A stretch of 64,000 nucleotides of DNA, taken from assembly GCF_030408835.1 (NCBI RefSeq), contig NZ_CP047357.1:2418001-2482000 (forward strand). Reading direction: 5' to 3'. The position numbers and the translations under genes are program-made. Positions 14,332 through 64,000 of the stretch are shown here, piece after piece; the stretch's first letter is position 1, and every line of letters begins with the position of its first letter. The DNA is from Corynebacterium freneyi. GTDB lineage: Bacteria > Actinomycetota > Actinomycetes > Mycobacteriales > Mycobacteriaceae. The notes beneath the pieces are model-generated. The model searched no databases, was not told where the DNA came from, and saw only the letters and a list, made by a program, of their open reading frames with translations.

Positions 14332-14378
14332 GGGACCGGTCGTCGTCAAGCACATCCTGCTTGACGACGGCCGGCCCC
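14332..14378. terminator. Long hairpin built from an inverted pair of the GCTTGACGAC motif
   Basis: A 21-bp stem with one mismatch, one G-T pair and a 5-nt loop contains GTCGTCAAGC (14342-14351) and its complement GCTTGACGAC (14359-14368). It lies 36 bp after the echA stop and probably ends the leftward valine operon, though no T-tract follows on either strand. The stem arms are the recurring 10-mer described in the findings. Confidence 0.6.
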
Positions 14379-14413
14379 GTACGACTTCGTCCCGGACTAC
14401 CCGAGGCCGCCGA

Positions 14414-15193
14414 TCAGCGCTCCCACTCGGGCTTGCGCTTGTCCGCGAAGGCGTTCATGCCCTCGTACTTGTCGGCGGTGGAGAACAGCGAGTAGAACAC
14501 GCGGCGCTCGTAGTGGATGCCCTCGGTCAGCGTGGTCTCCAGCGCGCGGTCAACGGCGTCGGTGGCGATGTAGGACGCGGTCAGCGGCATGTTCGCCACC
14601 TTCTCCGCGATCTTCGCGACTTCCTCGGCGAAGCCCTCCAACGGCAGGATGCGCGACACCAGGCCCGAACGCTCGGCTTCCTCCGCGTCCATCATGCGGC
14701 CGGTGAGCACCAGATCCATGGCCTTGTACTTGCCCACGGCCTTGGTCAGGCGCTGCGAACCGCCCATGCCGGGGATGACGCCCAGGGTGATCTCCGGCTG
14801 ACCGAACTTGGCGTTGTCCGCGGCCAGGATGATGTCGCCCATCATCGCCAGCTCGCAGCCGCCGCCCAGCGCGTAGCCGGACACCGCGGAAATGATCGGC
14901 GTGCGCACGCGGGACAGGCGATCCCAGCCGCCGAAAAGGTCGTCCAGGTAGACGTCCTTGTACGAAAGGTCCTTCATCTCCTTGATGTCGGCGCCGGCGG
15001 CGAAAGCCTTCTCGGAGCCGATGATCACGATGGCGCCGATGCCGTGGTCGCGGTCGAAGCCCTCCACCGCGTCGGCCAGCTCGTTCATCACCGTCGTGTT
15101 CAGCGCGTTGAGCGCCTTCGGGCGGTTCAGCGTGATCGTGGCCACGCGCCCCTCGACGGAGGTCAGGATGGTTTCGTAGGTGCCTTCGGACAT
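14414..15193 (-). CDS. echA: Enoyl-CoA hydratase
   Basis: The 259-residue crotonase-fold enzyme hydrates 2-enoyl-CoA, here probably methacrylyl-CoA to 3-hydroxyisobutyryl-CoA. Visible landmarks are [10 protein letters not shown] (about residue 23), the oxyanion-hole region [11 protein letters not shown] (about residue 64), and [21 protein letters not shown] with the catalytic Glu in this segment and in [16 protein letters not shown]. It is the last gene of the mmsA operon and its start lies 8 bp after the mmsB stop. The motif set is that of a true hydratase rather than 3-hydroxyisobutyryl-CoA hydrolase, so that hydrolase step is not encoded in this cluster. Confidence 0.95.
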
Positions 15194-15201
15194 TGGTTTT
15201 T

Positions 15202-16119
15202 CTAGTTCCTTTCGTCGGAGGCCGCGCCATCGGCCCGGGTCTGTTCAATGATGGCAGAAAAGTCCAGGCCGCCGTTGCCGTCCGCCAGGAATCGCGAGTA
15301 GAGCTCGCGGGCCAGCCGCCCCATCGGCGCCGAGGTGCCGGCGGTGTCCAGGGCGTGCTCGGCCAGGCCGAGGTCCTTGTCCATCAGGGCGGTGGCGAAG
15401 CCCGGCTTGAAACCGTTGTTCGCCGGCGACGTCGGCACCGGACCCGGAACCGGGCAGTTGACCGTCAACGCCCAGCAGGCGCCGGTGGAGTTGGAGACGA
15501 CCTCGTGGAACGCCTCCGGGGTCAGGCCCAGCTTATCGCCGAGCAACATCGCCTCGCCGATGGCGATCTGTTCGACGGCCAGGACCATGTTGTTGCACAC
15601 CTTCGCGGCCTGACCGGCGCCGGAGTCGCCGCAGTGCACGATGGAACGGCCCATGTGCTCGAGGACCGGGCGGGCGCGCTCGACGTCGGCCTCGTCGCCG
15701 CCGACCATGAAGGCCAACGTGCCCGCCGCCGCGCCCGAGATTCCCCCGGACACCGGGGCGTCGACGTGCCGGTGGCCGGCCGCCGCGACGCGGGCGGACA
15801 GCTCCCGGGCGTCGTCGACGGCGATCGTCGACGAATCGATGAACAGCGCCCCGGCCGGCGTGACCGGCAGCAGCTCGTCGTAGACGGCGCCGACGATCTT
15901 CCCGTTCGGCAGCATCGTCACCACGGCGTCGGCCGCCGCAACCGCGTCGACGGCGGATTCGTGGACGGTCACGCCTCCGTCGGCGGCGGTCTGGCGCGCC
16001 TCCGGCGACGGATCGGAGCCATGGACGTCAAGGCCCGCCTTGGCCAGGTTCACGGCCATCGGGCCGCCCATGTTGCCCAGGCCGATGACGGCCACGGTGC
16101 GGATGTCGGTGGTGCTCAT
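15202..16119 (-). CDS. mmsB: 3-hydroxyisobutyrate dehydrogenase
   Basis: The 305-residue NAD-dependent enzyme oxidises 3-hydroxyisobutyrate to methylmalonate semialdehyde. The Rossmann motif [19 protein letters not shown] starts at about residue 11. The substrate motif [16 protein letters not shown] lies near residue 123. The catalytic Lys region [11 protein letters not shown] of the family appears here as [15 protein letters not shown] near residue 170. The ATG at 16119 follows a poor ribosome binding site. It sits between the acyl-CoA dehydrogenase and echA in the valine pathway. Confidence 0.95.
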
Positions 16120-16153
16120 CTGGATTCTCGCTCCTCGTGTGTGGGGGTGGGTC

Positions 16154-16163
16154 GTCGTCAAGC
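16154..16163 (+). repeat. Interspersed motif GTCGTCAAGC, intergenic copy
   Basis: One of 15 exact copies of GTCGTCAAGC/GCTTGACGAC. Starts on the plus strand as GTCGTCAAGC: 14342, 16154, 22910, 27131, 32039, 48029, 49481, 56143, 63933. Starts as GCTTGACGAC: 14359, 22154, 32862, 35740, 57220, 57787. This copy lies in the acd-mmsB gap. Confidence 0.8.
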
Positions 16164-16247
16164 AATCGGTGCCGCAACGGAGCCGACCCGGACCGACCGG
16201 AGTCGGCGGGGCCGGCGGGGCCGGCGGGGCCGGAAGATCTGAAAGGT

Positions 16248-17488: not shown

Positions 17489-19009
<1,521 letters not shown>

Positions 19010-19095: not shown

Positions 19096-19284
19096 AAATC
19101 TAGGAGGAGGTATGGCGCGACCACATTTGGGGGCACCGTGTTAATGTTGCGAATTGACTGTTAACTCTTCGCCTCCCTGCTTGGCGCCCGCTTTTACCCC
19201 GGCCAACCTTGCTTTACGACGACCACCTGGCAGACCTTCGCCACCCGAGTTTTCTTTTTGCGAATTTCGTCCTAAGGTGACCTG

Positions 19285-22152: not shown

Positions 22153-22177
22153 CGCTTGACGACGCCCACCTGGGGCG

Positions 22178-22972
22178 TCATCGGCCCAGCAGGTCCTCCG
22201 GGCCGCGGATGGTGGCGGGGTCGCGCCCCAGCGCCCTGGCCACCACCGGCGCCCAGGGCAGGGACAGTCGCGCCCGCGTCACCAGATCGGCGTCGACGAG
22301 GACGTCGGCGGCGTCTCCGGTGACCACCGACCCGTCGACGAGGACGGCGGCGCGGGCGGCGAAGGCCCAGGCGACGTCGATGTCGTGGGTGGCCATCACC
22401 ACGGCCACGCCCCGATCGTGGAGCGCGCCGAGGGTGTCCAGCAGAGTGCGCGTCGCCGCCGGGTCGAGTCCCGCGGTGGGCTCGTCGAGAAGCAGGACGT
22501 CGGGCCGCATGGCCAGCGCACCCGCCAACGCGACCCGCTTGCGCTGCCCGTAGGACAACTGGTGCGGCACACGGTCGGCGAGATCGGTGATCTCGGCGGC
22601 GGCCATGGCCTCGGCGACGCGCACGCGCACCTCGTCGTCCGGCAACCCCTGATTGACGGGGCCGTAGGAAACGTCGGCGGCGACGGAGGTGGCGAACAAC
22701 TGATCGTCGGGATCCTGCAGCACCAGCTGGACCCGCTGCCGCAGATGATTGCGGCCGCGGCGGGAATAGGAAAACGGCGAACCGTCGAAGTCGAGCCGCC
22801 CTGCGGACGGCCGGATCGCACCGGCCAACAAGCGGAGCAACGTCGACTTGCCGGAACCGTTCGCCCCCAGCAGCGCCATGCGCTCCCCGGCGAGGATCTC
22901 CAGGTCGACGTCGTCAAGCACGCGCACACCGGGATGCCGGAACCCGACGCCGCGCGCGGCGAGAATGCTCAC
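22178..22972 (-). CDS. cbiO: Cobalt ECF transporter ATPase
   Basis: The 264-residue ABC ATPase has Walker A LLGANGSGKSTLLRLL (about residue 36), Q-loop VLQDPDDQLF, signature LSYGQRKRVALAGALAM and Walker B VLLLDEPTAGLD. The Q-loop and VLQDPDDQ pattern are those of energy-coupling-factor importers. The GTG at 22972 overlaps the cbiQ stop as GTGA. An in-frame GTG three codons earlier is the alternative. It is the last gene of cbiMNQO, which feeds cobalt to cobalamin synthesis or loading. The codons for VLDDVD contain one copy of the recurring GCTTGACGAC motif. Confidence 0.94.
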   Translation of the reverse strand: MSILAARGVGFRHPGVRVLDDVDLEILAGERMALLGANGSGKSTLLRLLAGAIRPSAGRLDFDGSPFSYSRRGRNHLRQRVQLVLQDPDDQLFATSVAADVSYGPVNQGLPDDEVRVRVAEAMAAAEITDLADRVPHQLSYGQRKRVALAGALAMRPDVLLLDEPTAGLDPAATRTLLDTLGALHDRGVAVVMATHDIDVAWAFAARAAVLVDGSVVTGDAADVLVDADLVTRARLSLPWAPVVARALGRDPATIRGPEDLLGR

Positions 22973-24049: not shown

Positions 24050-24801
24050 CGCACGGTCTCCTTCTCGTCGGCGTCGGCGGGGGCGGTCAGGCGCTCGTCA
24101 TGGGCGACCGCGTCGGCGATCGCGACGTCGGAAAGCTCGTTCTTCTTGAGCACGCCCAGGGAGAACAGCTCCTTCTCCGCGACGGTGCGCAGGGCCTTGA
24201 CCACCAGCACCGTCAGCAGCGCCTCGATGACGGCCAGCGGGATCTGGGTGACGGCGAACAGCGACAGGAACGTCGCCAGCGCACCGCCGAACCCGCCCGG
24301 ATCCGCCGGGTGCGCCAACGCCAGCTGCGTGGCCGTGACCACGTAGGTGGACAGATCCGCCAGGAACGCCGCGACGAACACCGAGGGCAGCAAACCGCCG
24401 CCCAAACGCCTGGTCAGGACGTACCCGCCCCACGCGACCCACGGGCCGACGATGCCCATGGAGAACACGTTCGCGCCGAGCGTGGTGATGCCGCCGTGGG
24501 CCAGCAGCAACGACTGGAAGAGAAGAACGATGGAGGCCAATACGGCCATGATGGGCGGCCTGAACATCACCGTGCCCAGGCCCGTGCCCGTGGGGTGCGA
24601 CGTCGAGCCGGTCACCGACGGGATCTTCAGGGCCGACAGCACGAACGTGAACGCGCCGGCGGCGCCGAGGAGCAAACCGGTGCCCGGCTTCTCCTTGAGC
24701 AGCTTGTTGACTCGCCACGCACCGTGGACGACGAACGGCGCCGCGGCCACCGTCCACCCCACCGCATGGCCGACGGGCAAAAAGCCCTCTGCGATATGCA
24801 T
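24046..24801 (-). CDS. cbiM: Cobalt ECF transporter substrate-binding subunit
   Basis: The 251-residue membrane protein begins [16 protein letters not shown]; the N-terminal Met-His is the metal ligand of CbiM/NikM subunits. The [15 protein letters not shown] motif appears as [31 protein letters not shown], followed by [22 protein letters not shown], the family signature that recognises Co2+. The C-terminal hydrophilic extension is short. It is the first gene of the operon and sits behind the second cobalamin riboswitch. Confidence 0.96.
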
Positions 24802-24884
24802 GTGAATTTATCCTCACGCGCCCCCGTCACCTCGCGGGTGGCGCACCGATCCACCCGGCGCCCATCGACGCCGGGGCCGATCCA

Positions 24885-25255: not shown

Positions 25256-26188
25256 ATGACCATCCACGACAACATCACCGACCTGATCGGCGGCACCCCG
25301 CTGGTCAAGCTCAACCGCCTCACCGAGGGCCTGCCCGGCACGGTCGTCGCCAAGCTGGAGTTCTACAACCCGGCCAACAGCGTCAAGGACCGCATCGGCA
25401 AGGCCATCATCGACGCCGCGGAGGCCTCCGGCGAGCTGAAGCCGGGCGGCACCATCGTCGAGGGCACCTCGGGCAACACGGGCATCGCCCTGGCGCTGGT
25501 CGGCGCCGCCCGCGGCTACAAGGTCATCCTCACCATGCCGGACACCATGAGCCAGGAGCGCCGAGTCGTGCTGCGCGCATTCGGCGCCGAGCTGGTGCTG
25601 ACCCCGGGCGCCGAGGGCATGAAGGGCGCGGTGAACAAGGCCAAGGAGATCGTCGAGAACACCGACAACGCCATCCTGGCCTCCCAGTTCGCCAACCAGG
25701 CCAACCCCGAGGTTCACGCCGCCACCACCGGCGAGGAGATCTGGGCCGACACCGACGGCAAGGTCGATTACTTCGTCGCCGGCATCGGCACCGGCGGCAC
25801 CATCACCGGCGCCGGCCGCACGCTTAAGAAGCACAACCCGGACGTCAAGCTCGTCGCCGTCGAGCCGGCGGATTCCCCGCTGCTCACCGAGGGCAAGGCC
25901 GGCCCGCACAAGATCCAGGGCCTGGGCGCCAACTTCGTCCCGGAGATCCTCGACCGGGACCTGCTCGACGAGGTCCTCACCTCCACCAACGAAGATGCCA
26001 TCGCCACCTCCCGCGAGCTGGCGAAGCAGGAGGGCATCCTCGGCGGCATCTCGGCCGGCGCCAACGTCAAGGCCGCCCTCGAGATCGCCGCCCGCCCCGA
26101 GGCCGAGGGCAAGACCATCGTGGTCATCATCCCGGACTTCGGCGAGCGCTACGTCTCCTCCATCCTGTACCAGGACCTGCGCGACTAA
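25256..26188 (+). CDS. cysK: Cysteine synthase (O-acetylserine sulfhydrylase)
   Basis: The 310-residue PLP enzyme makes cysteine from O-acetylserine and sulfide. The PLP lysine lies in [14 protein letters not shown] (about residue 44). [12 protein letters not shown] binds the substrate carboxylate, and [11 protein letters not shown] binds the PLP phosphate. The ATG has AAAGGAA upstream. It is followed by cysE in the same direction; a hairpin (CCGCCGACGC / GCGTCGGCGG, 26217-26250) lies in the 85-bp gap. The McbR-like box indicates control by sulfur status. Confidence 0.97.
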
Positions 26189-27037: not shown

Positions 27038-27316
27038 TTACGCGACCAGGTCGGCGTAATCGGGGTTCTTCGCGATGAACCGCTCCACGGCCGAGCACGA
27101 CGGGATGACGGATCCACCGGTTCGGCGGACGTCGTCAAGCGCGGCCTGGATCAGGGGCTTGGACAGGCCCTGCCCCTGGAACCGCTCGTAGACGACGGTG
27201 TGATTGAAATTCAACGCACCTTCGGCGGGCTCGTAGGCCGCGAAACCGGCCTCTTCGCCGTCGACGATGATGACGTAACGACGTCCGGACTCGTCGTGAT
27301 CGATGGTGTGCGCCAT
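27038..27316 (-). CDS. Small GNAT-like N-acetyltransferase (YjdJ/COG2388 type)
   Basis: The 92-residue protein has a minimal acetyltransferase fold with the acetyl-CoA loop in ERFQGQGLSKPLIQAALDDVR (about residues 44-64) followed by SAVERFIAKNPDYADL. This is the pattern of the short COG2388 proteins. The substrate is unknown. The ATG at 27316 is preceded by GAGGGAGAAT. The ALDDV codons carry a copy of the GCTTGACGAC motif (27131-27140 on the plus strand as its complement). Confidence 0.85.
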   Translation of the reverse strand: MAHTIDHDESGRRYVIIVDGEEAGFAAYEPAEGALNFNHTVVYERFQGQGLSKPLIQAALDDVRRTGGSVIPSCSAVERFIAKNPDYADLVA

Positions 27317-28178: not shown

Positions 28179-28432
28179 TTATGCCGCACACGAACTCCGT
28201 CCGTGCACGAGTTGATACTCTACACAGCCGTTCATCGGGGGCACAAATCTGCAGCTCACGGCGAAATTCCGCTCATTCCCCGCACCCGTCGCCACGCCTC
28301 CCCCGCCACGCCGCTCCCTTGCCGCGCGATAAAAAGGAAAGGGGCGAACGTCGCAAAGCAATACCCGCCACCGACGAACACGAAAGGCGGCCACCCACCT
28401 GAAATGGATGACCGCCTTCGCCAGAAAAATGG
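28179..28432. other. Spacer between the two tRNA-Asp genes
   Basis: Contains no gene. It includes a terminator for the upstream tRNA-Asp (stem 28386-28416, GGCGGTCATCC with GGGTGGCCGCC using G-U pairs) and a GTCGCAAAGC variant motif at 28350-28359. The two tRNA-Asp genes are therefore probably separate transcription units. Confidence 0.55.
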
Positions 28433-28668: not shown

Positions 28669-29646
28669 CTACGGCACACCACCCGACAAAATCGCAGGTT
28701 CGCGCTGCTTTTCGACGGTCCGGCGGCGAGCCCTCGAGCGGCCGATGAGCACGAGATCGAGCAGCAGGAAGCCGATCATCGACATGCCGAGGAGCGGCAG
28801 GAACGCGCCGACCGTCGCGGCGAAGACGACCACCCCGGCGACGATGCGCCACGACGGCACATCCGGCAGGCCGGGAACCGACGTGCCGCGCACGGTGGGA
28901 CGACGCAGCCACCACATGCGGTAACCCAGCACGATGATCGCCGCGATGCCCAGGCCGGCGGCGATGACGCGATCGGCCTGGGCGGGTGAGGCCGGCCCAC
29001 CGGCGCCCGGCGATTCCGGCGGCAGCGTGGCGTCGACCTTCGGCGCCTTCCAGTCCAGCGCGGAAACGACGGCGTCGACGTTCGCGCCGGCCCTCTGCGA
29101 CCACGTGATGCGGGTGGCGGCCAGGCCGAGCATCGCGACGATCAGCCACACGCCGAGAACGGCGTGGAGATTGAGCGACCGTCGACGGCGGCCCGCGTCG
29201 CCCGTCGGGGCGGGGGCGGCGCGCCACAGGCGGGTTCGGGTGCCGGGATCACGACGTCGGGCGGCCGACACGCGGCGCCACCACAGGTACAGCCCGCCCA
29301 GTGCGAGCACCCACAACCACGAAGCGGCCAGCTCGGCGTAGAGTTCGCCGGGTTCGCCCAGGTGGAGTTGCTGATGCAGACCGGACAGCCACCGGCGCAC
29401 CGGCAGCTCGCCGAGCCCGGAATAGGTCCGCTCCTCGCCGACGACGGCGGCGGTCGCCGGGTCGACGGTGAGCAGGTCGGCGTAGACGACCTTCTCGATC
29501 GTCGGCGCCAGCGCGTAGAACGCACCGGAAATGGCCGCGATCAGCAGGAATGGGCCGACCATCAAACCCGCGTAGAAGTGCAGGCGATGGAGGAAACGCG
29601 CGGGCCGGTCGCGGTTGACGCGACGGGCCGCGGGGGTTTCGGACAT
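28669..29646 (-). CDS. PepSY-associated transmembrane protein, shortened
   Basis: The 325-residue membrane protein has the N-terminal RFLHRLHFYAGLMVGPFLLIAAISGAFYAL segment (about residues 17-46), HQQLHLGEPGE motif (about residue 90) and a second helix LWVLALGGLYLWWRR, followed by LNLHAVLGVWLIVAMLGLAATRITWSQRAG. These define the PepSY_TM (COG3182) family linked to siderophore reduction or iron uptake. Family members usually have 400-500 residues with an extracytoplasmic PepSY domain. Here that region is replaced by a short linker (about residues 205-230, DATLPPESPGAGGPA) before three C-terminal helices. An 18-bp palindrome sits just upstream. Confidence 0.85.
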   Translation of the reverse strand: MSETPAARRVNRDRPARFLHRLHFYAGLMVGPFLLIAAISGAFYALAPTIEKVVYADLLTVDPATAAVVGEERTYSGLGELPVRRWLSGLHQQLHLGEPGELYAELAASWLWVLALGGLYLWWRRVSAARRRDPGTRTRLWRAAPAPTGDAGRRRRSLNLHAVLGVWLIVAMLGLAATRITWSQRAGANVDAVVSALDWKAPKVDATLPPESPGAGGPASPAQADRVIAAGLGIAAIIVLGYRMWWLRRPTVRGTSVPGLPDVPSWRIVAGVVVFAATVGAFLPLLGMSMIGFLLLDLVLIGRSRARRRTVEKQREPAILSGGVP

Positions 29647-29756: not shown

Positions 29757-31094
29757 TCAGACCGCGTCCGCGGGCTCCGACTCCGGCGCGGACTCAGACT
29801 CCGGCGCGGGCTCCGACTCCGGAGCCGGTGCGCGCAGCCAGCCCTTCCGATCGAACCACACGGAAGCGATCAGGCCGATGGTCACCGCGACGGCCACGGA
29901 AATGCCGGCGTAGATCAGCGCGTTGCCGACGCCCGACTCCCACGTGCCGCCGAGGTAGAGCATCGACCGCGAGCCGAGGTAGATCTGGTGCATCGGCGAG
30001 ATCAGGCCCAGCACCCGGAAGAACTCCGGCACGGCCTCCAGCGGCAGCGTGCCGCCGGCCGACGGCAGCCCCAGGACGATGAACAAGATGAGGTTGACCA
30101 CCAGACCCGGGTTGCCCAGCAGCGCGTTGATGGCGTGGCTGACCCAGCCGACGGCGAGGATCATCGCGGCGGTGAACCCCCACAGGGCGAACGGTTTGTG
30201 CAGGGGCATGCCGACCATCGAGCCGATGACGACGTACAGCGCCGCGACGAGGGCGGCCTGGGTGGCGGACATGCCGAACTTCACCACGAGGGTCGCCAGC
30301 CGCGACACGCGATGGTGGTCGTGCCGCACGAATACCGGCCCCCACTCCAGCGAGTGGATGCCCAGGCGGTTGTCGACGATCTGGCCGGTCACCATCGCAC
30401 CGGTGAAGCCGGCGAGCACGATGAGCAGCGTCCAGTAGAACGCGGACAGGCCGTTGCCGGTGCCGTCGGGAAGCGGGTGGAATTCCTCGAATTTGAAGTC
30501 GACCGGGTGCGCCGCGGCGGCCAGGGCGGTGCCGGTCGGCCCCTGCCCTTCCGGTGCGTCCGCGGCTGCGGCTTCGACCTTTTCCAGCAGTTGCTTGCCG
30601 ACGGCTTCGTCGACCTCCGTGCGAACTTGGAAGCCGACCTCCTTGACGATGGTCGATGCACCCAAGCCGGCCGCGGGGTTGGAGACGATGCGGATGTCCG
30701 GGGCGACGACCTCGTTGTCGACCATGGTGCCGATGCCCCAGGCGTTGAGGCGGGAACTGAAGTTCTCGGGGATGACGATCGCGCCGTACAGTTCACCCCG
30801 CGACATCTGGTCGATGGCTTCCTGGCCGCTGAGCTGACGCAGGTCGAACTGCTCTTCGTCGATGCCGTCGACGAGGCCTTCGACGACCTGGTCGCCCGCC
30901 CTCAACTCGGTGCCGTCGAGGGTGCCGGCGCCGCGGTCGGCGTTGACGATGGCGATCGGGAATTCATGGAGGTTTTTCTTGGGATTGACGTTGCCGGTGA
31001 GGTAGGCGCCGCCGAAGAAGATCGTCAGCAGGGCGACGGCGAGGGTCGGAGCCAACCAGAACGCCAGTGTCCGGCGGGGATCGCGGGTGCTCAT
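29757..31094 (-). CDS. YhgE/Pip-family membrane protein (ABC-2-like)
   Basis: The 445-residue protein has an N-terminal helix (about residues 10-32, FWLAPTLAVALLTIFFGGAYL) followed by GNVNPKKNLHEFPIAIVNADRGA, the typical start of YhgE/Pip proteins. A large extracytoplasmic domain (about 35-230) and five or six C-terminal helices follow. The end is a repeated acidic-proline tail (PAPESEPAPESESAPESEP), encoded by a short tandem repeat at 29766-29825. The family resembles ABC-2 permeases such as phage-infection protein and type VII secretion accessory EsaA. It is cotranscribed with the TetR gene by an ATGA overlap, so the TetR protein probably controls it. Substrate unknown. Confidence 0.88.
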   Translation of the reverse strand: MSTRDPRRTLAFWLAPTLAVALLTIFFGGAYLTGNVNPKKNLHEFPIAIVNADRGAGTLDGTELRAGDQVVEGLVDGIDEEQFDLRQLSGQEAIDQMSRGELYGAIVIPENFSSRLNAWGIGTMVDNEVVAPDIRIVSNPAAGLGASTIVKEVGFQVRTEVDEAVGKQLLEKVEAAAADAPEGQGPTGTALAAAAHPVDFKFEEFHPLPDGTGNGLSAFYWTLLIVLAGFTGAMVTGQIVDNRLGIHSLEWGPVFVRHDHHRVSRLATLVVKFGMSATQAALVAALYVVIGSMVGMPLHKPFALWGFTAAMILAVGWVSHAINALLGNPGLVVNLILFIVLGLPSAGGTLPLEAVPEFFRVLGLISPMHQIYLGSRSMLYLGGTWESGVGNALIYAGISVAVAVTIGLIASVWFDRKGWLRAPAPESEPAPESESAPESEPADAV

Positions 31095-31693
31095 CGCGCC
31101 ACCCCCAATCCGCCGTCGACGCCCCGGACGAGCAGGACCCCGAGGTCGGAGACGAGCTCGTCGAGGGGGCCGCGGTCGTCGTCGCCCGCCCACTGCGCCG
31201 CGGTCCACGCGATGGAGGCGGCGATGGCGCGGGCGGCGGTTTCCGGCGCCAGCGGTCCGGCGGCGAGGCTGCCGCCGAGGGTCGGGGCGGCGAGGATCCG
31301 GCCCGCCAAGTAGTCGATGGACTGATGGAGGACTTCCTGGCCGCCCGGGCCGGCGAGGACGCGATGCATGAAGTCGACGTGCGGCTCGAGCTTTTCGACG
31401 GCGATGCCGATGACCTCGAGGATACGGTCGATGTCGCCGGAGTCGAAGCCGTCGGAGGCCGGATCGATGTCCGCGAACGCCTCGTCCAGGCGGAGAACGG
31501 CGGCGTCGGCCCATGCCTCGGCCAGGTCGCCGTAGACGGCGTAGAAGGTGGGCCGGCTGACGCCGGCTTCGTTGACCAGGTCGGTGATCGTGATGTCGAC
31601 CGGCGCCCGTTCATCCAAGAGCGCGACGGCCGCGGTGCGGAGCTTGTCGCGGGACCGGGACGCCGGTCGCGGTGGATTCTGGATTTTACGCAT
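31091..31693 (-). CDS. TetR-family repressor
   Basis: The 200-residue protein has an N-terminal helix-turn-helix (about residues 16-60: RDKLRTAAVALLDERAPVDITITDLVNEAGVSRPTFYAVYGDLAEAWADA) and a variable ligand-binding C-terminal domain. It overlaps the YhgE-type gene by 4 bp and reads first in the pair. A 14-bp palindrome lies 8 bp before its start codon, so autoregulation is likely. No Shine-Dalgarno sequence is seen, and the transcript may be short-leadered. Confidence 0.92.
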   Translation of the reverse strand: MRKIQNPPRPASRSRDKLRTAAVALLDERAPVDITITDLVNEAGVSRPTFYAVYGDLAEAWADAAVLRLDEAFADIDPASDGFDSGDIDRILEVIGIAVEKLEPHVDFMHRVLAGPGGQEVLHQSIDYLAGRILAAPTLGGSLAAGPLAPETAARAIAASIAWTAAQWAGDDDRGPLDELVSDLGVLLVRGVDGGLGVAR

Positions 31694-31886: not shown

Positions 31887-32196
31887 ATGCCCGGAAAATC
31901 CTACCGCCCCCTCCCCCGCGAGAGGAAAACCGGGTCCCGTGTCGTGCCCACACCCCACGCGACCGCCCCGTACTCCACGCAACGGTTGCGAAGCCCCGGC
32001 GACACGCACGGTCACCCCCGGTTCTCACTCGACGGACCGTCGTCAAGCAGTGGTCTTACGCATTTCGATTACCCCCACCCCCATCGCCGCCGGGAACCAA
32101 CCGAGGCAGCGGGACGACTGTTGCAGTGAGAGGCTCATCGCCCTCCGGGACTTCGCGCGCCCTTTTCCGCTGCCCGCTTTTCGCCGAGGAGAGTTC
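31887..32196. other. cyd operon upstream region
   Basis: The 310 bp without a gene separate tRNA-Lys and cydA. They must hold the cyd promoter, but I see no clear -35/-10 pair. A GTCGTCAAGC motif copy lies at 32039-32048. A good ribosome binding site (GAGGAGAG) precedes the cydA ATG. Confidence 0.5.
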
Positions 32197-42090: not shown

Positions 42091-42819
42091 ATGCGCACCG
42101 TTTACCGCGAACAGATGGACAACCTCGCCCACGGCCTGATCGTGATGTGCGACCACGTCCATGGAATGCACCGCGCCGCCGCCAAGGCGCTTTTCGACGC
42201 CGACCTCGAGGCCGCCGAGTCGGTCCTCACTTCCCTCGACAAGCTCGACGAATTCCGCATCGCCGCAGAGGACCGGGCTTTCGAGCTGCTCGCCCGCGAA
42301 GCTCCCGTGGCGCGCGACCTGCGCCAGGTGGTCTCCGGCATCTACATCGTCGAGGACATGGCCCGCATGGGCGCCCTGTCCGTGCACATCGCCAACACCG
42401 CCCGCCGTCGCCACCCCGGGAAGGCCCTGCCCGAGCAGGTCGAGGGCTACTTCCGCGAGATGGCCTCCGTCGCCGACACGATCACCCACGACACCCGTCA
42501 GGTCCTCATCGACTACGACGTCGCCAGCGCCCTGCAGGTCAGCGACGACGATGACGCCATCGACGACATCCACAGCCACCTGTTCACCCTCACCACCGCC
42601 GACGACTGGCCGCACACGTCGGCCGAGACCGTCGACGTGACCCTGCTGAGCCGCTACTTCGAGCGTTACGCCGACCACGCCGTGGCCGTCGCCGCCCGCA
42701 TCGTCTACCTGGCCACCGGCTACAAGCAGGAGGACTACCTGCGCGAGTTGGACTCCGAGGAGCGTCGCGCCGCGATCTCCAAGCGCTTGAGCGACATGGC
42801 TCGCCACTTCCACTCCTGA
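42091..42819 (+). CDS. phoU: Phosphate transport regulator PhoU
   Basis: The 242-residue all-helical protein has two PhoU repeats (about residues 15-105 and 125-215), with EDMARMGALSVHIANTARRR and YFERYADHAVAVAARIVYLATG as the repeat metal-binding helices. PhoU links the Pst transporter to phosphate signalling and restrains uptake. It is convergent with the pstSCAB operon rather than part of it, as in related Actinobacteria. The ATG at 42091 is chosen because the conserved MRTVYREQMDNL start follows it. Confidence 0.95.
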   Translation: MRTVYREQMDNLAHGLIVMCDHVHGMHRAAAKALFDADLEAAESVLTSLDKLDEFRIAAEDRAFELLAREAPVARDLRQVVSGIYIVEDMARMGALSVHIANTARRRHPGKALPEQVEGYFREMASVADTITHDTRQVLIDYDVASALQVSDDDDAIDDIHSHLFTLTTADDWPHTSAETVDVTLLSRYFERYADHAVAVAARIVYLATGYKQEDYLRELDSEERRAAISKRLSDMARHFHS

Positions 42820-42982: not shown

Positions 42983-43006
42983 CGTCGTGAAGCGAAAAAA
43001 GGCGGC

Positions 43007-47305: not shown

Positions 47306-48190
47306 TCACATTCCGTACATGACGTCGCGTCGGGCCACCTCGAAACCCGTTCGCTCGTACGTCCGCACCGCCGGTTCGTTGTCGCCTTCCACGTACAGGA
47401 TCACCCGATCGTCGCCCCGATCCCGCAGGTGGCGCATCCCCGCGCGCGTCAGCCAACCGCCGATGCCGCGGCCGCGCGCCGCATCGGCGAGCCCGATGAC
47501 GTACACCTCGCCGACTCCCCCGCCATGCTGCTTGGTCCAGTGGAAGCCGAGGATCTCCCCCGTGTCCTCGTCGACGGCGAACAGCACGCCGGCCGGGTCG
47601 AACCACTCGACGGAACGTCCGCGCCGCAGCCGCTCCAGGTCCCACCCGCCCTGTTCGGGGTGCCAGTCGAAGGCTTCGTTGTTGACGGCCAGCCACGCCT
47701 CGTCGACCGCGTCCTCCCCCATCCGGGCGGTGGCCGCGGGCAGGTCCTCGAGCCGGATCCCGGCCGGCGGTTCCTCCTCGCCGAGCCCCGACACGGCCTG
47801 CCCGGGGGCGGTCATCTGCAGCAGTTCGCGCACCACGCGCCGCCCGGACGACGCCGCCAGTTCCGCGGCCCCCGGCACGTCTCCATGGGCCCACACGGGA
47901 AGGGGCTTTCCGACGAGTTCGTCGACGGCCCGCAGCAGCGCGGTGCCCGCCCCACGGCGGCGGTGCTCCACCGCGACGGCCAATTCGGCGGAATCGTCGG
48001 CGACGGCGGCCAACCCGACCAGCGAACCGTCGTCAAGCACCCGCAGGTGCCGATGACCGGCGGAAGGATCCGACAGTCCCAGAACGAACGCCTCTCCGAA
48101 GGGCTCGACCCCGTCGGCCGCCTCGATGGCGGACAACAGGGCCCGGGCCTCGGCGAGATCGGGCGCGCCTTCTTCGATGCGGAACGTCAC
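47306..48190 (-). CDS. mshD: Mycothiol synthase
   Basis: The 294-residue protein has two GNAT domains. It acetylates the cysteine amine of Cys-GlcN-Ins in the last step of mycothiol synthesis. The first domain has AVEHRRRGAGTALLRAVDELVG (about residue 78). The second has VYVIGLADAARGRGIGGWLTRAGMRHLRDRG (about residue 235), then LYVEGDNEPAVRTYERTGF. The GTG at 48190 overlaps the upstream regulator gene as GTGA, so the two are cotranscribed. One GCTTGACGAC copy encodes VLDDGS. The gene supports an actinobacterial host. Confidence 0.95.
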   Translation of the reverse strand: MTFRIEEGAPDLAEARALLSAIEAADGVEPFGEAFVLGLSDPSAGHRHLRVLDDGSLVGLAAVADDSAELAVAVEHRRRGAGTALLRAVDELVGKPLPVWAHGDVPGAAELAASSGRRVVRELLQMTAPGQAVSGLGEEEPPAGIRLEDLPAATARMGEDAVDEAWLAVNNEAFDWHPEQGGWDLERLRRGRSVEWFDPAGVLFAVDEDTGEILGFHWTKQHGGGVGEVYVIGLADAARGRGIGGWLTRAGMRHLRDRGDDRVILYVEGDNEPAVRTYERTGFEVARRDVMYGM

Positions 48191-48976: not shown

Positions 48977-49816
48977 GTGAGCATTTCTCGCCCGGTCACA
49001 CGCATTTTCGCCGCCGTCGGCGCCGTCGCGCTGCTCGCCGTTGGCGCGGATTTCGGGCTCGCCATCCACGCGGAACGCAACCTGGCCAACCGGATCCGCG
49101 AGGAAATGAACCTGCCCGCCGACCCCTACGTCAGGCTGGGCGGCGCCGCCTACGCGTCGTCGTTCTTCACCGGCAAGTGGAGTTCCATCCAGGTCCGCGC
49201 CCGCGACCTGGAGATCGACAACTTCGGCCTGGTGTCCGTCGAATCCGGCGCCGTCGACGTCGAGGTGCCCCCGTCAGCGGTGTGGTCCGGCGATTTCAAG
49301 GACGGCTTCACCGAGCGCTACCACACGACGCTGCAGCTCGACGGCCTGTCGTTGGGCCGCCAGTTCGACTTCACCGACCTGGCCATCCAGAACCACGAGG
49401 ACATCTCGCCCGCCGGCGGCTGGGAAACCGAGGCCATCTTCGAGGCCACTCCCCCGGGGTGGTCGGCGCCCGCGGAAGTCGTCGTCAAGCTGCGGATCGT
49501 GCGGGGCGACGCGAAGTTCATCCCCGTCGAGGTCATCTCGGGGCCCGAGGGACCGGATTCGAAGGACGTCCGTCGGGGCCGGGAGCTTTCCGACGACGCC
49601 ATCGACGCGATCCTGCCCGCCTTCGAACTGGAGTTGACCGGGGCCGAACTGCCCCTGCGCCAGCGGCCCACCCGCATCTACGTCTCGGGCGGCTCCGTCT
49701 TCATCGAGGGCGACGAACTGTTCCGCACCGTCTCGCCCGAGGACTTCCTGCCCGTGGCCACGCACGACCCCGAACTCGGCGGGGAGACGGACCGGGGCGA
49801 CGACTCTTCGCAGTAG
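48977..49816 (+). CDS. lmeA: LmeA-family phospholipid-binding protein (DUF2993)
   Basis: The 279-residue protein has an N-terminal signal anchor (about residues 8-30, IFAAVGAVALLAVGADFGLAI). A DUF2993 domain follows, with RIREEMNLPADPYVRLGGAAYASSFFTGKWSSIQVRARDLEIDNFGL. The family includes mycobacterial LmeA (Rv0817c), which promotes lipomannan synthesis in the periplasm. It is divergent from the GlnR-like gene, as in Mycobacterium. A GTCGTCAAGC copy encodes VVK. The C-terminal end is acidic. Confidence 0.88.
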   Translation: MSISRPVTRIFAAVGAVALLAVGADFGLAIHAERNLANRIREEMNLPADPYVRLGGAAYASSFFTGKWSSIQVRARDLEIDNFGLVSVESGAVDVEVPPSAVWSGDFKDGFTERYHTTLQLDGLSLGRQFDFTDLAIQNHEDISPAGGWETEAIFEATPPGWSAPAEVVVKLRIVRGDAKFIPVEVISGPEGPDSKDVRRGRELSDDAIDAILPAFELELTGAELPLRQRPTRIYVSGGSVFIEGDELFRTVSPEDFLPVATHDPELGGETDRGDDSSQ

Positions 49817-51392: not shown

Positions 51393-52505
51393 ATGGCCGA
51401 CGTGACCATCGATGAGTTCAGTCCGATCGTTCATCACGTCGCCGGGGCGGTCGCCGTCCCGGACGGTGATCCCGGTGGGCGGGCGGGCGTCGCATGGCAT
51501 TACGGCTCGCCTCTGGTCGAACAGCGGGCGATCGCCGACGGCGCCGCACTGGTGGATCGTTCCCACCTCCGCGTCATCCGGGTGTCCGGCCCGGATCGCC
51601 TGGAGTGGTTGAACACCCTTTTTTCCCAGAAGCTCGATGATGCGGGCGCCGGCGTCGCCACCGAGGCCCTCGACCTGGATCCGCAGGGGCGCGTCCTGCA
51701 CCACATGGGCGTGTCGGTCCTGGAGGATTCCGTGCTTCTCGACGTCTCCCCGTTGGGCGCGGAGTCGCTGCACCGTTTCCTGACCATGATGATCTTCCGC
51801 TCCGACGTCACCGTCGAGTTCGCGGACCTGGCGATCGTGTCGGTGCTCGGCCCCGACGCCGGGAAGGTGCTCGCCGCCGCGGGTTTGCCGGACCCGGGCG
51901 CCGGTGCGGTGGCCGTGTCCGACGACGGAACCGTGGTGCGCGGCACGACGTGGCCGGCGACCGGTGCCCGCGACGTGTTCGTCGCCCGCGACGGGCTGAC
52001 CGACGCCTGGGATCGCCTGGTTTCCGCCGGCGCGACGCCGACGGGCCTGATGGCGTGGGAGGCCGAACGCGTGGTGTCCCTGCACCCCGAGCCGGGCCTG
52101 GACATCGACGGGAAGATGATCCCCCACGAGGCCCCGACGTGGATCGGCCCCGCCGTGCACCTGGACAAGGGCTGCTACCGCGGCCAGGAAACCGTCTCCC
52201 GCGTCCACAACCTCGGTCGACCCCCGCGCACCCTGGTGCTGCTGCACGTCGACGGATCCGATTCCGCCCTCCCCGAGCCGGGTGACCCGGTGACCGCGGG
52301 CAAGCGCACCGTCGGCCGGGTGGGCACCGTCGTCGAGCACCACGAACTGGGCCCCGTCGCGCTGGCGCTGGTGAAGCGGTCCTCCCAGGAAGGCGTCGAT
52401 CTCGCCGCGGGCGGCGTCGCGGTGGCCGTGGATCCGTCCACGGTGGATCGGGACGAATCGGTGCGGCCGGGACGGGCGGCCGTCGACAAGCTCCGGGGGC
52501 GCTGA
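51393..52505 (+). CDS. ygfZ: Folate-binding YgfZ/GcvT-like protein
   Basis: The 370-residue tetrahydrofolate-binding protein carries the YgfZ hallmark KGCYRGQETVSRVHNLGRPPR (about residue 262) with the conserved Cys. Upstream is LVDRSHLRVIRVSGPDRLEWLNTLFSQ as in GcvT-fold proteins. YgfZ supports Fe-S cluster enzymes under oxidative stress. The ATG at 51393 is chosen because the frame before it belongs to the divergent promoter region. Confidence 0.93.
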   Translation: MADVTIDEFSPIVHHVAGAVAVPDGDPGGRAGVAWHYGSPLVEQRAIADGAALVDRSHLRVIRVSGPDRLEWLNTLFSQKLDDAGAGVATEALDLDPQGRVLHHMGVSVLEDSVLLDVSPLGAESLHRFLTMMIFRSDVTVEFADLAIVSVLGPDAGKVLAAAGLPDPGAGAVAVSDDGTVVRGTTWPATGARDVFVARDGLTDAWDRLVSAGATPTGLMAWEAERVVSLHPEPGLDIDGKMIPHEAPTWIGPAVHLDKGCYRGQETVSRVHNLGRPPRTLVLLHVDGSDSALPEPGDPVTAGKRTVGRVGTVVEHHELGPVALALVKRSSQEGVDLAAGGVAVAVDPSTVDRDESVRPGRAAVDKLRGR

Positions 52506-55806: not shown

Positions 55807-56214
55807 TCACCCCAACCTGCACACGGGCAGATGCGCGGCCAGCTCGCCCGCGCGGGTGCCCGACACGTCCATCGACTCGCCGGGCTCCTCCCCCTCACGC
55901 TCGCGCGCCTCGTCGAATCCGACCAGGCCGGCGGCGATGCGCAGCCACGTCCGGGGCGTCATCTCGACGACGTTGGGCGGGGTGCCTCGGGTGTGCCGGG
56001 GCCCTTCGATGCACTGAACCGCCACGAACGGGGGCACGCGCAGTTCCACGCTGTGCCCGGGGGCCTCTTCGGCGAGCATCCGGGCGGACAGCCGAACGGC
56101 CTTGGCCAGCTCCGCCCGCCCCGGGCGCGTGGCCGACTGGCCGTCGTCAAGCAACCACTCCCCCACCGCCGCCATGGCGGCCCTCAATTCGATCGGGTCG
56201 ACCTTCTTTGCCAT
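55807..56214 (-). CDS. Sterol-carrier-family conserved protein
   Basis: The 135-residue protein begins MAKKVDPIELRAAMAAVGEWLLDDG and has VELRVPPFVAVQCIEGPRHTRGTPPNVVEMTPRTWLRIAAG, the pattern of the small actinobacterial SCP2-like proteins such as Rv0807 next to purF. A lipid-binding role is inferred only from the family. One GCTTGACGAC copy encodes LLDDG. Confidence 0.85.
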   Translation of the reverse strand: MAKKVDPIELRAAMAAVGEWLLDDGQSATRPGRAELAKAVRLSARMLAEEAPGHSVELRVPPFVAVQCIEGPRHTRGTPPNVVEMTPRTWLRIAAGLVGFDEAREREGEEPGESMDVSGTRAGELAAHLPVCRLG

Positions 56215-57219: not shown

Positions 57220-57229
57220 GCTTGACGAC
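57220..57229 (-). repeat. Interspersed motif GCTTGACGAC, intergenic copy
   Basis: Sits after a T-run (gcgtttttgg) between the convergent thioesterase and arsC. Another intergenic copy follows arsC's upstream side at 57787-57796, in the same TTTTG context. Confidence 0.75.
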
Positions 57230-57258
57230 GGCCCGCGTGGTGGTCCGTGAGCCGGGGG

Positions 57259-57675: not shown

Positions 57676-57884
57676 CGTCGCGTCGCTTTCTTAGGTGGGG
57701 CGTGGGGTGGCGCCGGGGCCGCGGTCGCGACCAGGATACGTGCGGGGGCGGATCGTCGAACGTTTCTTTTTTGGCCGGATGGTTTTGCTTGACGACGGCG
57801 GCGGGTACGCATGCGCCCTGATGCACATGTGAACGGTGGGGCGAAACGAACCCGAATCGTTACCCAATGTTCGAAGGAATCGAC
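57676..57884. other. Region upstream of arsC and the HNH gene
   Basis: No gene seen. It contains the arsC promoter region, a GCTTGACGAC copy (57787-57796) and the palindrome CACATGTG (near 57824). Confidence 0.45.
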
Positions 57885-61617: not shown

Positions 61618-61640
61618 CCGCGCATCATCGACGACGCTGT

Positions 61641-61736: not shown

Positions 61737-61767
61737 CCACAGATGCCGAGGGAGCGAACGTCCGCGC

Positions 61768-62622: not shown

Positions 62623-62625
62623 GCG

Positions 62626-63450
62626 CTACTCCCCGGCCCCGTCGGGCAGCTGAGACTCGATGGCCTCGACGAACGACTCCAACGGCTGAGCACCGACGAT
62701 CACGCCTTTGCCCACGATGAACGTCGGCGTCGAATTCACCCCGTACAGGGAGCCCTCCTCGGCGTCCTTCGCGATCGCCTCGTCGAAACGATCCGACATC
62801 ATGTCCGCGCGGAACTTCTCCAGATCCGGGATGCCCGCCTGCTCGGCGAACTCCATCAGCGCCTGCTCGTTGAGGTCGGCGTGACCGCGCTCGGGGGCCG
62901 CCGCCATGACGACCTCATGGAACTCGCGGAACGTGCCCTGCTCCGCGGCGGCACGGCCCGCGCGGGCGGCGAGCATCGATTCCTCGCCGAAGATCGGCAT
63001 GTCGCGCCACTCGATGCGCACCGTGCCCGCCTCCACGTAATCCGCCATCAGAGTCGGCTCGATGTCGCGGGCGAACTTCGCGCAGAACGGGCAGCGCCAG
63101 TCTGAATAATTGATCAGCACGACCGGCGCGTCGACGGCTCCCACCGCCATCGGGTCCCCCTCGTCGCGGCGGGCGAGGAAACTCAGGCCCTCACCTTCCG
63201 ACGCCCCCTCCGCCCCGGACCGGCCACCATCGACCGAATTCGAGGTGCCGCCGCCGGCCTCCGTCGCCGAACCAGAGCCCGAACCGGAGCCCGAACCCGA
63301 ACCAGAGCCTCCCCACACCATGTACCCGCCGACGCCGATGATGAGCAGAATGACCACCACCAGCGCGATCACGGCCGGCACCATCCCGGGTGCGGGCTTC
63401 TTCTTCCGGGGTGCGGTGGCCGGGGCGCCGGCCGGGGCGGTGTCGCTCAT
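62626..63450 (-). CDS. Membrane-anchored DsbA-like thioredoxin
   Basis: The 274-residue protein has an N-terminal anchor helix (about residues 23-46), a Gly-Ser repeat linker (GSGSGSGSGSGSGS, about residues 48-61) and a DsbA domain with the active site DWRCPFCAKF (Cys120 and Cys123). The cis-Pro loop is NSTPTFIVG. It belongs to the actinobacterial group that oxidises or isomerises disulfides in secreted proteins. The ATG at 63450 is chosen because it gives the anchor helix near the N terminus. Confidence 0.93.
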   Translation of the reverse strand: MSDTAPAGAPATAPRKKKPAPGMVPAVIALVVVILLIIGVGGYMVWGGSGSGSGSGSGSGSATEAGGGTSNSVDGGRSGAEGASEGEGLSFLARRDEGDPMAVGAVDAPVVLINYSDWRCPFCAKFARDIEPTLMADYVEAGTVRIEWRDMPIFGEESMLAARAGRAAAEQGTFREFHEVVMAAAPERGHADLNEQALMEFAEQAGIPDLEKFRADMMSDRFDEAIAKDAEEGSLYGVNSTPTFIVGKGVIVGAQPLESFVEAIESQLPDGAGE

Positions 63451-63486
63451 GGGGTCTCCACTTCCACGTCGGGTCGGGCGTGCATT

Positions 63487-63496
63487 GCTTTGCGAC
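63487..63496 (-). repeat. Motif variant GCTTTGCGAC, intergenic
   Basis: Variant of the recurring 10-mer in the gap upstream of the DsbA-like gene. Other exact copies of this variant are at 28350-28359 and 35771-35780 (both as the complement GTCGCAAAGC). Confidence 0.6.
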
Positions 63497-63588
63497 GGCC
63501 GCCCGTTCACGGCGACCGCCCGCCAATCGAATACGGCCTACCGTATCCCACGGCCGTGACGCGCGTGGGGCGCCCGCCACCGCGCACG

Positions 63589-63625
63589 AAAAACCGGCCC
63601 TCCCGCCATCGCGGAAGAGCCGGTT
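63589..63625 (-). terminator. purL terminator
   Basis: Minus strand AACCGGCTCTTCCGC, loop GATG, GCGGGAGGGCCGGTT then TTT. Confidence 0.88.
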
Positions 63626-63641
63626 CACGCCGAAAAACGGA

Positions 63642-64000
63642 TTACTCCGCCTCGACCACCGAGTTCGCGCCCGCCGCATGGGCGAACAGCTTCGGCAGGG
63701 TGTCGCGCCATGCGGACTCCGCCTCGGACACCGGGATCTCGAAGGAAATGTCGCCACCGGACACGCGGATGACCTTCTCGTCATCGGCGGTCAGGACGCG
63801 GCCGATCTTCGCGAACGGCACGCCCACCTCGGCGGCACGGGCCTCCAGGTCCGCAGCGGCACCGGCCGGCACCGCGACCAAAGCGCGCGAGGCCGACTCC
63901 GAGAACAGGGCCACGAACGGGTCGGCGGAGACGTCGTCAAGCGAAACCTCGATGCCGACGCCCGACTGAGCCGCAGCCTCGACGATGGCCTGCGACAGGC
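63642..64000 (-). CDS. purL: Phosphoribosylformylglycinamidine synthase subunit PurL, C-terminal part
   Basis: The leftward frame is open to the window edge, so only the last ~119 residues are seen. They include QAIVEAAAQSGVGIEVSLDD, FVALFSESASRALVAVPAG and AEVGVPFAKIGRV, typical of the PurL C-terminal AIRS-type domain, ending FAHAAGANSVVEAE. PurL makes FGAM in step 4 of purine synthesis. A GCTTGACGAC copy encodes SLDDV. The gene continues beyond base 64000. Confidence 0.92.
   Translation of the reverse strand, partial: LSQAIVEAAAQSGVGIEVSLDDVSADPFVALFSESASRALVAVPAGAAADLEARAAEVGVPFAKIGRVLTADDEKVIRVSGGDISFEIPVSEAESAWRDTLPKLFAHAAGANSVVEAE

Follow-up and report, generated by a model that had tools for sequence, protein, structure and literature searches.

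A 10-mer, GCTTGACGAC, recurs across a 64,000-nucleotide stretch of the Corynebacterium freneyi genome (the window), which raises the question of what role so short a word could play. The window holds 16 copies, compared with a mean of 0.11 and a maximum of 1 in 100 dinucleotide shuffles. An earlier note on this DNA had listed 15 copies in both orientations; all 15 of its coordinates are exact and both orientations are indeed used (seven copies on the plus and nine on the minus strand), while one copy, at 2732 on the plus strand, had been missed. Each of the 16 copies sits within the one-base-longer word GCTTGACGACG. The underlying core is GCTT-NN-CGACG, in which the two middle bases are free, and it occurs 36 times in the window versus 1.4 times in shuffles. 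Of the near variants pointed out in the note, GCTTTGCGAC belongs to the same motif, differing in the free middle bases, while GCGTGACGACG, present three times in the window, breaks the core. The copies in the window are listed below, with their coding or intergenic status and their sense taken from the gene calls of this analysis.

2732..2742, plus: GCTTGACGACG, the copy beyond the earlier list
14341..14369 (14341-14351 minus, 14359-14369 plus): inverted pair of GCTTGACGACG, intergenic hairpin
16153..16163, minus: GCTTGACGACG, intergenic
19211..19221, plus: GCTTTACGACG, intergenic
22154..22164, plus: GCTTGACGACG, intergenic by gene call
22483..22493, minus: GCTTCTCGACG, coding, sense
22909..22919, minus: GCTTGACGACG, coding, sense (L-D-D)
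24126..24136, minus: GCTTTCCGACG, coding, sense
25345..25355, minus: GCTTGGCGACG, coding, antisense
27130..27140, minus: GCTTGACGACG, coding, sense (L-D-D)
28349..28359, minus: GCTTTGCGACG, intergenic
28707..28717, plus: GCTTTTCGACG, coding, antisense
30464..30474, minus: GCTTCCCGACG, coding, sense
30593..30603, plus: GCTTGCCGACG, coding, antisense
31390..31400, plus: GCTTTTCGACG, coding, antisense
32038..32048, minus: GCTTGACGACG, intergenic
32862..32872, plus: GCTTGACGACG, coding, sense (L-D-D)
35740..35750, plus: GCTTGACGACG, coding, sense (L-D-D), inverted with the copy at 35770
35770..35780, minus: GCTTTGCGACG, coding, antisense
36639..36649, plus: GCTTGCCGACG, coding, sense
37800..37810, plus: GCTTCTCGACG, coding, sense
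41837..41847, plus: GCTTTACGACG, coding, sense
42189..42199, plus: GCTTTTCGACG, coding, sense
42983..42993, minus: GCTTCACGACG, intergenic
47905..47915, plus: GCTTTCCGACG, coding, antisense
48028..48038, minus: GCTTGACGACG, coding, sense (L-D-D)
49480..49490, minus: GCTTGACGACG, coding, antisense (V-V-K)
49585..49595, plus: GCTTTCCGACG, coding, sense
51734..51744, plus: GCTTCTCGACG, coding, sense
52481..52491, minus: GCTTGTCGACG, coding, antisense
56142..56152, minus: GCTTGACGACG, coding, sense (L-D-D)
57220..57230, plus: GCTTGACGACG, intergenic
57787..57797, plus: GCTTGACGACG, intergenic by gene call
63487..63497, plus: GCTTTGCGACG, intergenic by gene call
63932..63942, minus: GCTTGACGACG, coding, sense (L-D-D)

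Genome-wide excess and codon context

The genome-wide count is far from expectation: GCTTGACGACG occurs 487 times compared with 13 for the reversed word, and the 10-mer was found 110 times in a 504-kb sample, where a Markov model expects 6.1. The core itself is present in 1,720 copies, about one per 1.7 kb, versus 119 for the reversed control (14-fold), with T favoured ahead of it and C two bases behind. Such an excess of a short non-palindromic word is a feature of the DNA-uptake sequences of Neisseriaceae (DUS) and Pasteurellaceae (USS). Evenness of spacing beyond random was not significant (P=0.10). The 27 single-mismatch forms sum to 694 copies in 701 kb (about 26 each) versus 465 copies of the core, with 166 of them contributed by GCTCNNCGACG and 100 by GCGTNNCGACG, the second in abundance. 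Perfect copies do not outnumber singly mismatched ones in these 701 kb; to our knowledge, such a surplus is not a property of every uptake sequence.

The seven coding copies read in the note as xLDDx, and the antisense one read as VVK, are recovered by independent gene calls at codon offset 2, and CTT, described there as disfavoured, makes up 3.3% of Leu codons in the 504-kb sample. In this sample one codon frame houses 201 of the 241 coding copies, and genes with very high GC3 hold few copies, as would suit an artefact of codon or mutational bias. There is virtually no chance that this explanation is right. In Leu-x-Asp settings flanked by G on both sides, CTT-NNC-GAC is used in 139 of 356 cases versus 5.3 expected (26-fold over the codon-matched expectation), and with one wrong flanking base it falls to 1 of 131 and 3 of 183, as expected, which rules out codon context as the source of the excess. 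The same doubt had been raised in the note for L-D-D; in the right frame and with the right flanks, CTT-GAC-GAC is found in 42 of 60 cases compared with 1.24 expected. Moreover, intergenic copies are denser than coding ones.

Placement, conservation and dialects

In the 504-kb sample the core density is 0.54/kb in genes versus 1.48/kb in intergenic DNA (2.7-fold), and it is highest, at 2.93/kb, between convergent genes. Genes contain 241 of the 331 copies, and most of the 331 lack a close partner. Ten of the 18 close pairs are wholly intergenic; all ten are inverted and fold as terminator-like hairpins. The hairpin of the window has the arrangement CGTCGTCAAGC-ACATCCT-GCTTGACGACG and a predicted energy of -19.1 kcal/mol. 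The two rRNA spans of the window contain no copy of the core, and genes with GC3 <0.80 hold five copies in 20.3 kb. On mobile DNA, one copy was counted in phage BFK20 and none in a C. atrinae plasmid, although the counted word may not be the dialect of their hosts; a C. comes plasmid has five copies in 50 kb where about one is expected, with the same reservation about its host.

Conservation was measured against one close relative (genome G164), where identity is 0.93 in the core, 0.82 at the two free bases and 0.80 in the flanks. The third base of CTT is kept in 23 of 34 cases inside motifs versus 8 of 69 outside, i.e. against codon preference. Some scrambled words are retained about as often as the motif. 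An internal gap is present at 7 of 108 aligned sites, which points to an origin by point mutation rather than by insertion.

Among 201 Corynebacterium genomes, 141 carry the CGACG core, 10 carry only the GCTTNNCGATG (CGATG) dialect and 50 carry neither; one genome with both dialects (G143) is counted among the 141. Many genomes of the genus contain hundreds to nearly two thousand copies, which over the 141 positive genomes sum to 76,487 forward and 76,514 reverse. The two dialects cluster on the tree. No comparable excess was found in 120 genomes from 49 other genera, and no further dialect in 80-100 kb from each of five of the 50 motif-free genomes (G014, G039, G152, G163 and G120). Other GC-rich words, of the CGACGCC type, are in excess in genomes G015 and G033.

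Rival readings of the word

Signals of the Chi type (recombination and repair) and of the KOPS type (polar segregation) are orientation-biased. The word resembles them in being abundant, conserved and located mostly in genes, but it lacks their polarity, as the note had argued for KOPS: the genome holds 861 copies of the core on one strand and 859 on the other, by GC skew the G-rich strand carries 242 copies and the C-rich strand 223, and the two halves of the chromosome coordinates give 147/141 and 79/98. A polar signal was rejected for this lack of orientation bias relative to replication, and a Chi- or KOPS-like role is very unlikely. Recognition by a methyltransferase, a restriction enzyme or an epigenetic regulator is suggested by the split word, which looks like some enzyme sites, and by the dialects, which could track enzyme specificity. 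Restriction sites are avoided as a rule, however, whereas this word is enriched, and a methylation role leaves the hairpins and the codon-defying conservation unexplained, making this reading highly improbable.

Little credence can be given to the word being primarily a transcription terminator with its single copies as relics, since the hairpins and the dense convergent gaps agree with this but the location of most copies in genes, the scarcity of close partners and the conservation of coding CTT copies, with single coding copies kept better than background, do not. It is also unlikely, if conceivable, that the word is selected as a site for a genus-specific nucleoid or chromosome-organising protein with no role in uptake. 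Its whole-chromosome spread, conservation and strand symmetry agree with such a protein, as does the retention of ComEC and DprA in motif-free genomes; alone, however, the protein predicts neither inverted hairpin copies at convergent gene ends, nor the lack of copies in the window's rRNA spans, nor a one-base change in the whole copy set between clades. The methylation and nucleoid roles, which the note held to be equally open, are less well supported than uptake, the reading that it had put first and that is favoured here.

A putative uptake sequence and comparable systems

As judged from sequence, GCTT-NN-CGACG probably serves the genus Corynebacterium as a DNA-uptake sequence with dialects. 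The lack of strand polarity, the inverted pairs and intergenic excess, the point-mutation origin with a conserved core, the dialects and the presence of competence genes are all features published for DUS or USS in the available text of the reports (PMC7811141, PMC12616744, PMC5031613, PMC1626085, PMC3630211).

The genome studied (G000) encodes ComEA, ComEC, DprA, TadA, two T2SSF proteins and two TadE-like proteins, and of pilus ATPases only the Tad type was detected. Whether a genome carries the motif cannot be told from this machinery, because genomes without the motif retain ComEC (80/80), DprA (76/76) and TadA (78/80) equally; the presence or absence of these near-universal proteins was rejected as a switch. 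No TadA scored above the cut-off in the motif-bearing draft genomes G021 and G113. We know of no sequence-specific DNA receptor in any Tad pilus. By analogy with ComP of Neisseria, the most likely receptor, at a guess, would be a minor pilin encoded at the Tad locus, a TadE_Rv3655c-type or an Rv3654c-type TadE-like protein. In the latter, the variable residue of the C-terminal A-x-A-G-P is Arg in 29 of 29 CGACG genomes (taken by eye for G000 and G001) and Lys in seven, Arg in two and Gln in one of 10 CGATG genomes. Among motif-free genomes with the usual Tad type, ten could be read and have Arg (nine) or Thr (one), an eleventh (G073) being left out because a contig end cuts the protein, and no basic residue is found there in eight of eight genomes of the divergent Tad type. 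Assigning the receptor by this match of residue to dialect was set aside; the pattern is weak and was not counted, because it is confounded by descent and Arg also occurs in motif-free genomes.

In competent cells, a sequence-specific Tad pilus subunit would capture double-stranded DNA from outside the cell, pilus retraction and ComEA would bring it across the mycomembrane and wall, and one strand would enter the cytoplasm through ComEC to be recombined by DprA and RecA. Since fragments bearing the word would enter better, matches would spread by recombination at the expense of near-matches, so that copies would accrue by point mutation where coding permits and lost copies would be restored. 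Dialects would be specificities that drifted apart between clades; in some clades the preference may have disappeared, the machinery may have fallen out of use, or both.

The data suggest that tags for recognising kin DNA are also used in an entirely different phylum. Uptake sequences have been described in two proteobacterial families, Pasteurellaceae and Neisseriaceae (PMC5031613, PMC7811141), and none was found described for Actinomycetota in the literature searched. On present evidence it is somewhat likely that the word is a genus-wide self-DNA code, evolved independently of these families, read by a Tad pilus and with at least two dialects acting as gene-flow barriers. If so, sequence-coded recognition of kin DNA, here in a third, actinobacterial origin, evolves repeatedly and can be tied to a Tad pilus; many Corynebacterium species would be naturally transformable under conditions still to be found, the word would be a practical tag for delivering DNA to laboratory strains, and its dialects would limit gene flow within a genus whose members live on skin and mucosae or are used in industry.

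Transformation by a Tad pilus has a parallel in Micrococcus luteus, an actinobacterium of another genus and order, for which the available text treats the tadA genes and comEA as competence genes and mentions no uptake sequence (PMC6667448). Neisseriaceae DUS, as described in the accessible parts of the reports, likewise occur on both strands in copy numbers from hundreds to thousands, form inverted pairs serving as terminators and have clade-specific dialects sharing a core, with competence genes present; their receptor is ComP, while in Corynebacterium both receptor and uptake are proposed (PMC3630211, PMC12616744). The Corynebacterium word is unrelated to DUS, is split by two free bases, and belongs to an actinobacterium in which a Tad ATPase was the one pilus ATPase detected. 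From USS of Pasteurellaceae it also differs in word and phylum, and uptake preference, measured for USS, is here presumed. Single-mismatch forms are relatively commoner in the 701 kb examined here, perfect copies outnumbering singly mismatched ones in H. influenzae, as far as that source describes (PMC1626085). In the available text, USS are similar in their spacing (about 1 kb in H. influenzae), point-mutation origin, subclade variants and lower density in coding sequence, and they are scarce in rRNA genes, as the Corynebacterium word may be, judging from the two rRNA spans of the window (PMC7811141, PMC1626085).

The word and its core motif

All 15 positions of GCTTGACGAC listed in an earlier note, which had likened this 10-mer, recurring in both orientations, to DNA-uptake sequences, are exact, and a 16th copy at 2732 had been overlooked. 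The 16 exact copies in the window compare with a mean of 0.11 and a maximum of 1 in 100 dinucleotide-preserving shuffles. G follows in 16/16 copies, which extends the word to GCTTGACGACG. In the whole genome (a single contig of 2,880,330 bases, with the window at 2,418,001–2,482,000) GCTTGACGACG has 247 forward and 240 reverse copies, against 13 for the reversed word, so that the genome-wide count proposed in the earlier note reveals an excess.

A 504-kb sample of the genome, comprising the window, 20 evenly spread 20-kb stretches and the Tad and comEC loci (20 kb each), contains 110 copies of GCTTGACGAC (6.1 expected from a fifth-order Markov model), 35 of GCTTTGCGAC (1.0), 22 of GCTTTCCGAC (1.3) and 41 of the 9-mer GCTTTACGA (2.3, fourth-order). 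The part common to these over-represented words is the core GCTT-NN-CGACG, present 331 times in the sample versus 2 to 18 times for each of six scrambles. The window holds 36 core copies (dinucleotide-shuffle mean 1.4, maximum 6); genome-wide there are 861 on the forward strand and 859 on the reverse, with 119 for the reversed control. The NN pair of the 331 cores is GA in 110, TA in 41, TG in 34, TT in 26, CA in 23, TC in 21, GC in 20, CT in 16 and GT in 11; A is its first base in only 3. Of the 206 copies whose NN is GA, TA, TC or TG, roughly half carry a T before the core and roughly two thirds a C two bases beyond it.

Taken one word at a time, the consensus is strong, yet the near-matches together exceed the perfect copies, since a 701-kb sample contains 465 core copies and 694 copies of the 27 words differing at one core base, about 26 each. 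The commonest of these are GCTCNNCGACG (166) and GCGTNNCGACG (100). Other changes at the position altered in GCGTNNCGACG reach 42 and 16 in the same sample; GCGTNNCGACG is possibly a tolerated variant.

Placement, codon context and conservation

The longest copy-free gap of the 504-kb sample, window positions 2732–14341, includes an rRNA operon and a 438-codon frame at 3540–4856. RNA gene annotation of the window gives:

1–1511, minus strand, 16S rRNA gene, truncated at the edge of the window
5520–10764, minus strand, rRNA operon (5S, 23S, 16S)

No core copies lie in these two rRNA spans. The 16S piece and the 16S-23S-5S operon share a strand and fall within 11 kb; the 438-codon frame lies between them. 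The window also carries two cobalamin riboswitches, at 19274–19493 (plus strand) and 24869–25090 (minus strand).

With genes predicted by a self-made caller trained on this genome, whose single gene boundaries are approximate, the 504-kb sample has 241 copies in genes (0.54/kb), 88 between genes (1.48/kb) and 2 across an edge. Intergenic spaces hold 2.93 copies per kb where the neighboring genes converge, 1.22 where they run in tandem and 1.42 where they diverge. There are 18 neighboring pairs less than 80 bp apart; 10 are wholly intergenic, all 10 inverted, and as RNA these have folding energies of −9.9 to −55.0 kcal/mol, with a second GC-rich stem enclosed in some. Genes with GC3 below 0.80 (5 copies in 20.3 kb) and above 0.94 (12 in 63.9 kb) are both copy-poor, and composition therefore has its own effect. 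The lack of strand bias noted earlier holds: in 701 kb the G-rich strand carries 242 copies and the C-rich strand 223, the genome-wide split is 861/859, and polarity is absent. Spacing is not significantly more even than random (variance-to-mean 0.65, P = 0.10).

Coding copies of the sample are 159 sense and 82 antisense, and one codon frame holds 201 of the 241. Codon usage as the cause is ruled out. CTT makes up 3.3% of Leu codons in predicted genes, while L-D-D in the right frame and with the flanking bases is written CTT-GAC-GAC in 42/60 cases against 1.24 expected, the excess over synonymous forms that the earlier note had made a check. For L-x-D under the same restrictions, CTT-NNC-GAC is used in 139/356 (5.34 expected), and the excess is gone when a flanking base differs (1/131 with 1.7 expected; 3/183 with 2.8 expected). 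The antisense V-x-K form is found in 62/91, against 33.7 expected.

Comparison with the close relative G164 aligned 174 kb of 257 kb tried, at a mean identity of 0.86. Across 74 copies that align without gaps, their 12-base flanks included, identity is 0.926 in the core, 0.818 in the NN pair and 0.799 in the flanks, and the full motif is present in G164 at 50. The one-base neighbors GCTC..CGACG and GCTG..CGACG are retained at 10/38 and 4/21. The other scrambles have few sites; some of them match the motif in retention (GTTC..CGACG 12/23, GCTT..GCAGC 4/6, reversed word 4/9), and three more stand at 0/3, 0/2 and 0/1. Word retention alone is therefore a weak argument. A matched test took the third base of CTT codons with CT kept, setting aside 2 CT-lost codons inside and 11 outside motifs: T is kept in 23/34 inside motifs versus 8/69 outside (Fisher P = 1.3e-8). 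Copies mostly change by point mutation and are held against codon preference, since T is kept in this way and only 7/108 copies have an internal gap. The 101 gap-free copies comprise 68 with the core intact, 16 with one change (10 at the wobble T) and 17 with more.

Dialects, mobile DNA and competence genes

In 201 Corynebacterium genomes, sampled evenly from a larger set and scored positive when the CGACG core reaches at least 3 times the reversed control, the core is found in 141, with 115 to 1,964 copies each; the lowest, G129, is marginal (115 vs 27). Strand totals over the positives are equal (76,487 and 76,514). A second dialect, GCTTNNCGATG, has 625–1,337 copies in 11 genomes and at most 213 in every other; of the 11, only G143 carries the CGACG core as well. 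Neither word set is present in 50/201, and no other dialect was found in five such motif-free genomes (80–100 kb each). Motif-free G015 and G033 (samples L052–L053, L084–L093) show an excess word around GGCGTCGA / CGACGCC, which may reflect either codon effects or a remote dialect. In motif-free G120 (L135–L138), TGGTTCGGGT-type words are in excess, and in G152 (L127–L130) the over-represented words are dominated by a repeat, present about 50 times, that resembles a CRISPR in appearance only.

Among 246 genomes from 67 other genera, none has more than 33 copies of the exact 11-mer; most counts fall below the reversed control, and some genomes of family f9 modestly exceed it (G209, 25 vs 8; G289, 20 vs 4). 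Across 49 other genera (120 genomes), GCTTNNCGAYG stays within about 2.1 times control, versus 13.5 in C. freneyi. Single records of Dietzia, Rhodococcus, Mycolicibacterium and Nocardia are at or below control. Two metagenome-assembled genomes, Corynebacterium sp. S30M_Sa_12 and a C. urealyticum, have word counts identical to G136 and motif-free G146, respectively. A tree of the helicase gene adjoining the Tad locus (41 rows: 38 surveyed genomes and 3 named records), one gene and not a species tree, shows the CGACG state in both branches of the earliest split in the genus, requires 2 changes to account for CGATG and unites four motif-free genomes whose Tad locus is divergent as a single clade (100/100).

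Phage BFK20 carries a single copy, where composition predicts about 0.8 for both dialects; a C. atrinae plasmid has 0, and a C. comes plasmid 5 in 50 kb of its 83.5 kb (about 1 expected); the C. freneyi density would predict 26–30 in each. These counts weakly support scarcity in mobile DNA, and host dialects may differ from that of C. freneyi. A C. atrinae plasmid has an annotated DprA gene (L261:43260–44171).

The C. freneyi Tad locus encodes TadA (TIGR03819), two T2SSF proteins, a CpaE/Ssd-like ATPase just below the NCBIfam cut-off, a TadE_Rv3655c-type minor pilin, an Rv3654c-type TadE-like protein and a DUF4244 protein, whose end was judged Flp-like on reading. Away from it, comEA and comEC adjoin, below full-length NCBIfam equivalog cut-offs and above domain cut-offs; dprA is also outside the locus. 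ComEC is present in 80/80 genomes (40 CGACG-core, 10 CGATG and 30 motif-free), TadA above cut-off in 78/80 of these (the exceptions, G021 and G113, are motif-bearing drafts) and DprA in 76/76 of a similarly mixed set, and therefore these genes do not discriminate motif state. The lowest TadA scores (136–159 bits) belong to 18 motif-free genomes, which, from eight examined, may share a divergent Tad type; motif-bearing G047 scores equally low (155 bits). Each of the 78 genomes has one T2SSE match above cut-off, which leaves Tad as the sole pilus ATPase detected.

Comparison with known uptake sequences

Literature matches listed for the word and its variants were papers unrelated by title. Among those listed for uptake sequences, competence or natural transformation in Corynebacterium or Actinobacteria, none reported an uptake sequence in this phylum in its title or abstract start, most subscription journals being outside the scope. 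In excerpts of a stem-loop survey, small repeat families of C. diphtheriae are described, one of which, Cod-2, lies within genes (PMC2267715).

The word is conserved, strand-symmetric, dialect-forming and placed like a DNA-uptake sequence, with which it shares most of the features that can be checked from sequence. That it is one we consider probable; its action in uptake, and the receptor through which it would act, we infer. According to excerpts of published work, uptake sequences of Pasteurellaceae and Neisseriaceae are often inverted terminators and form dialects, occur sparsely in coding DNA, in rRNA genes and in new segments, and in H. influenzae are spaced about 1 kb apart (PMC5031613, PMC7811141, PMC12616744). 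Point mutation is likewise given as the origin of USS (PMC1626085, PMC7811141), and gene flow is described as limited by DUS dialects (PMC3630211).
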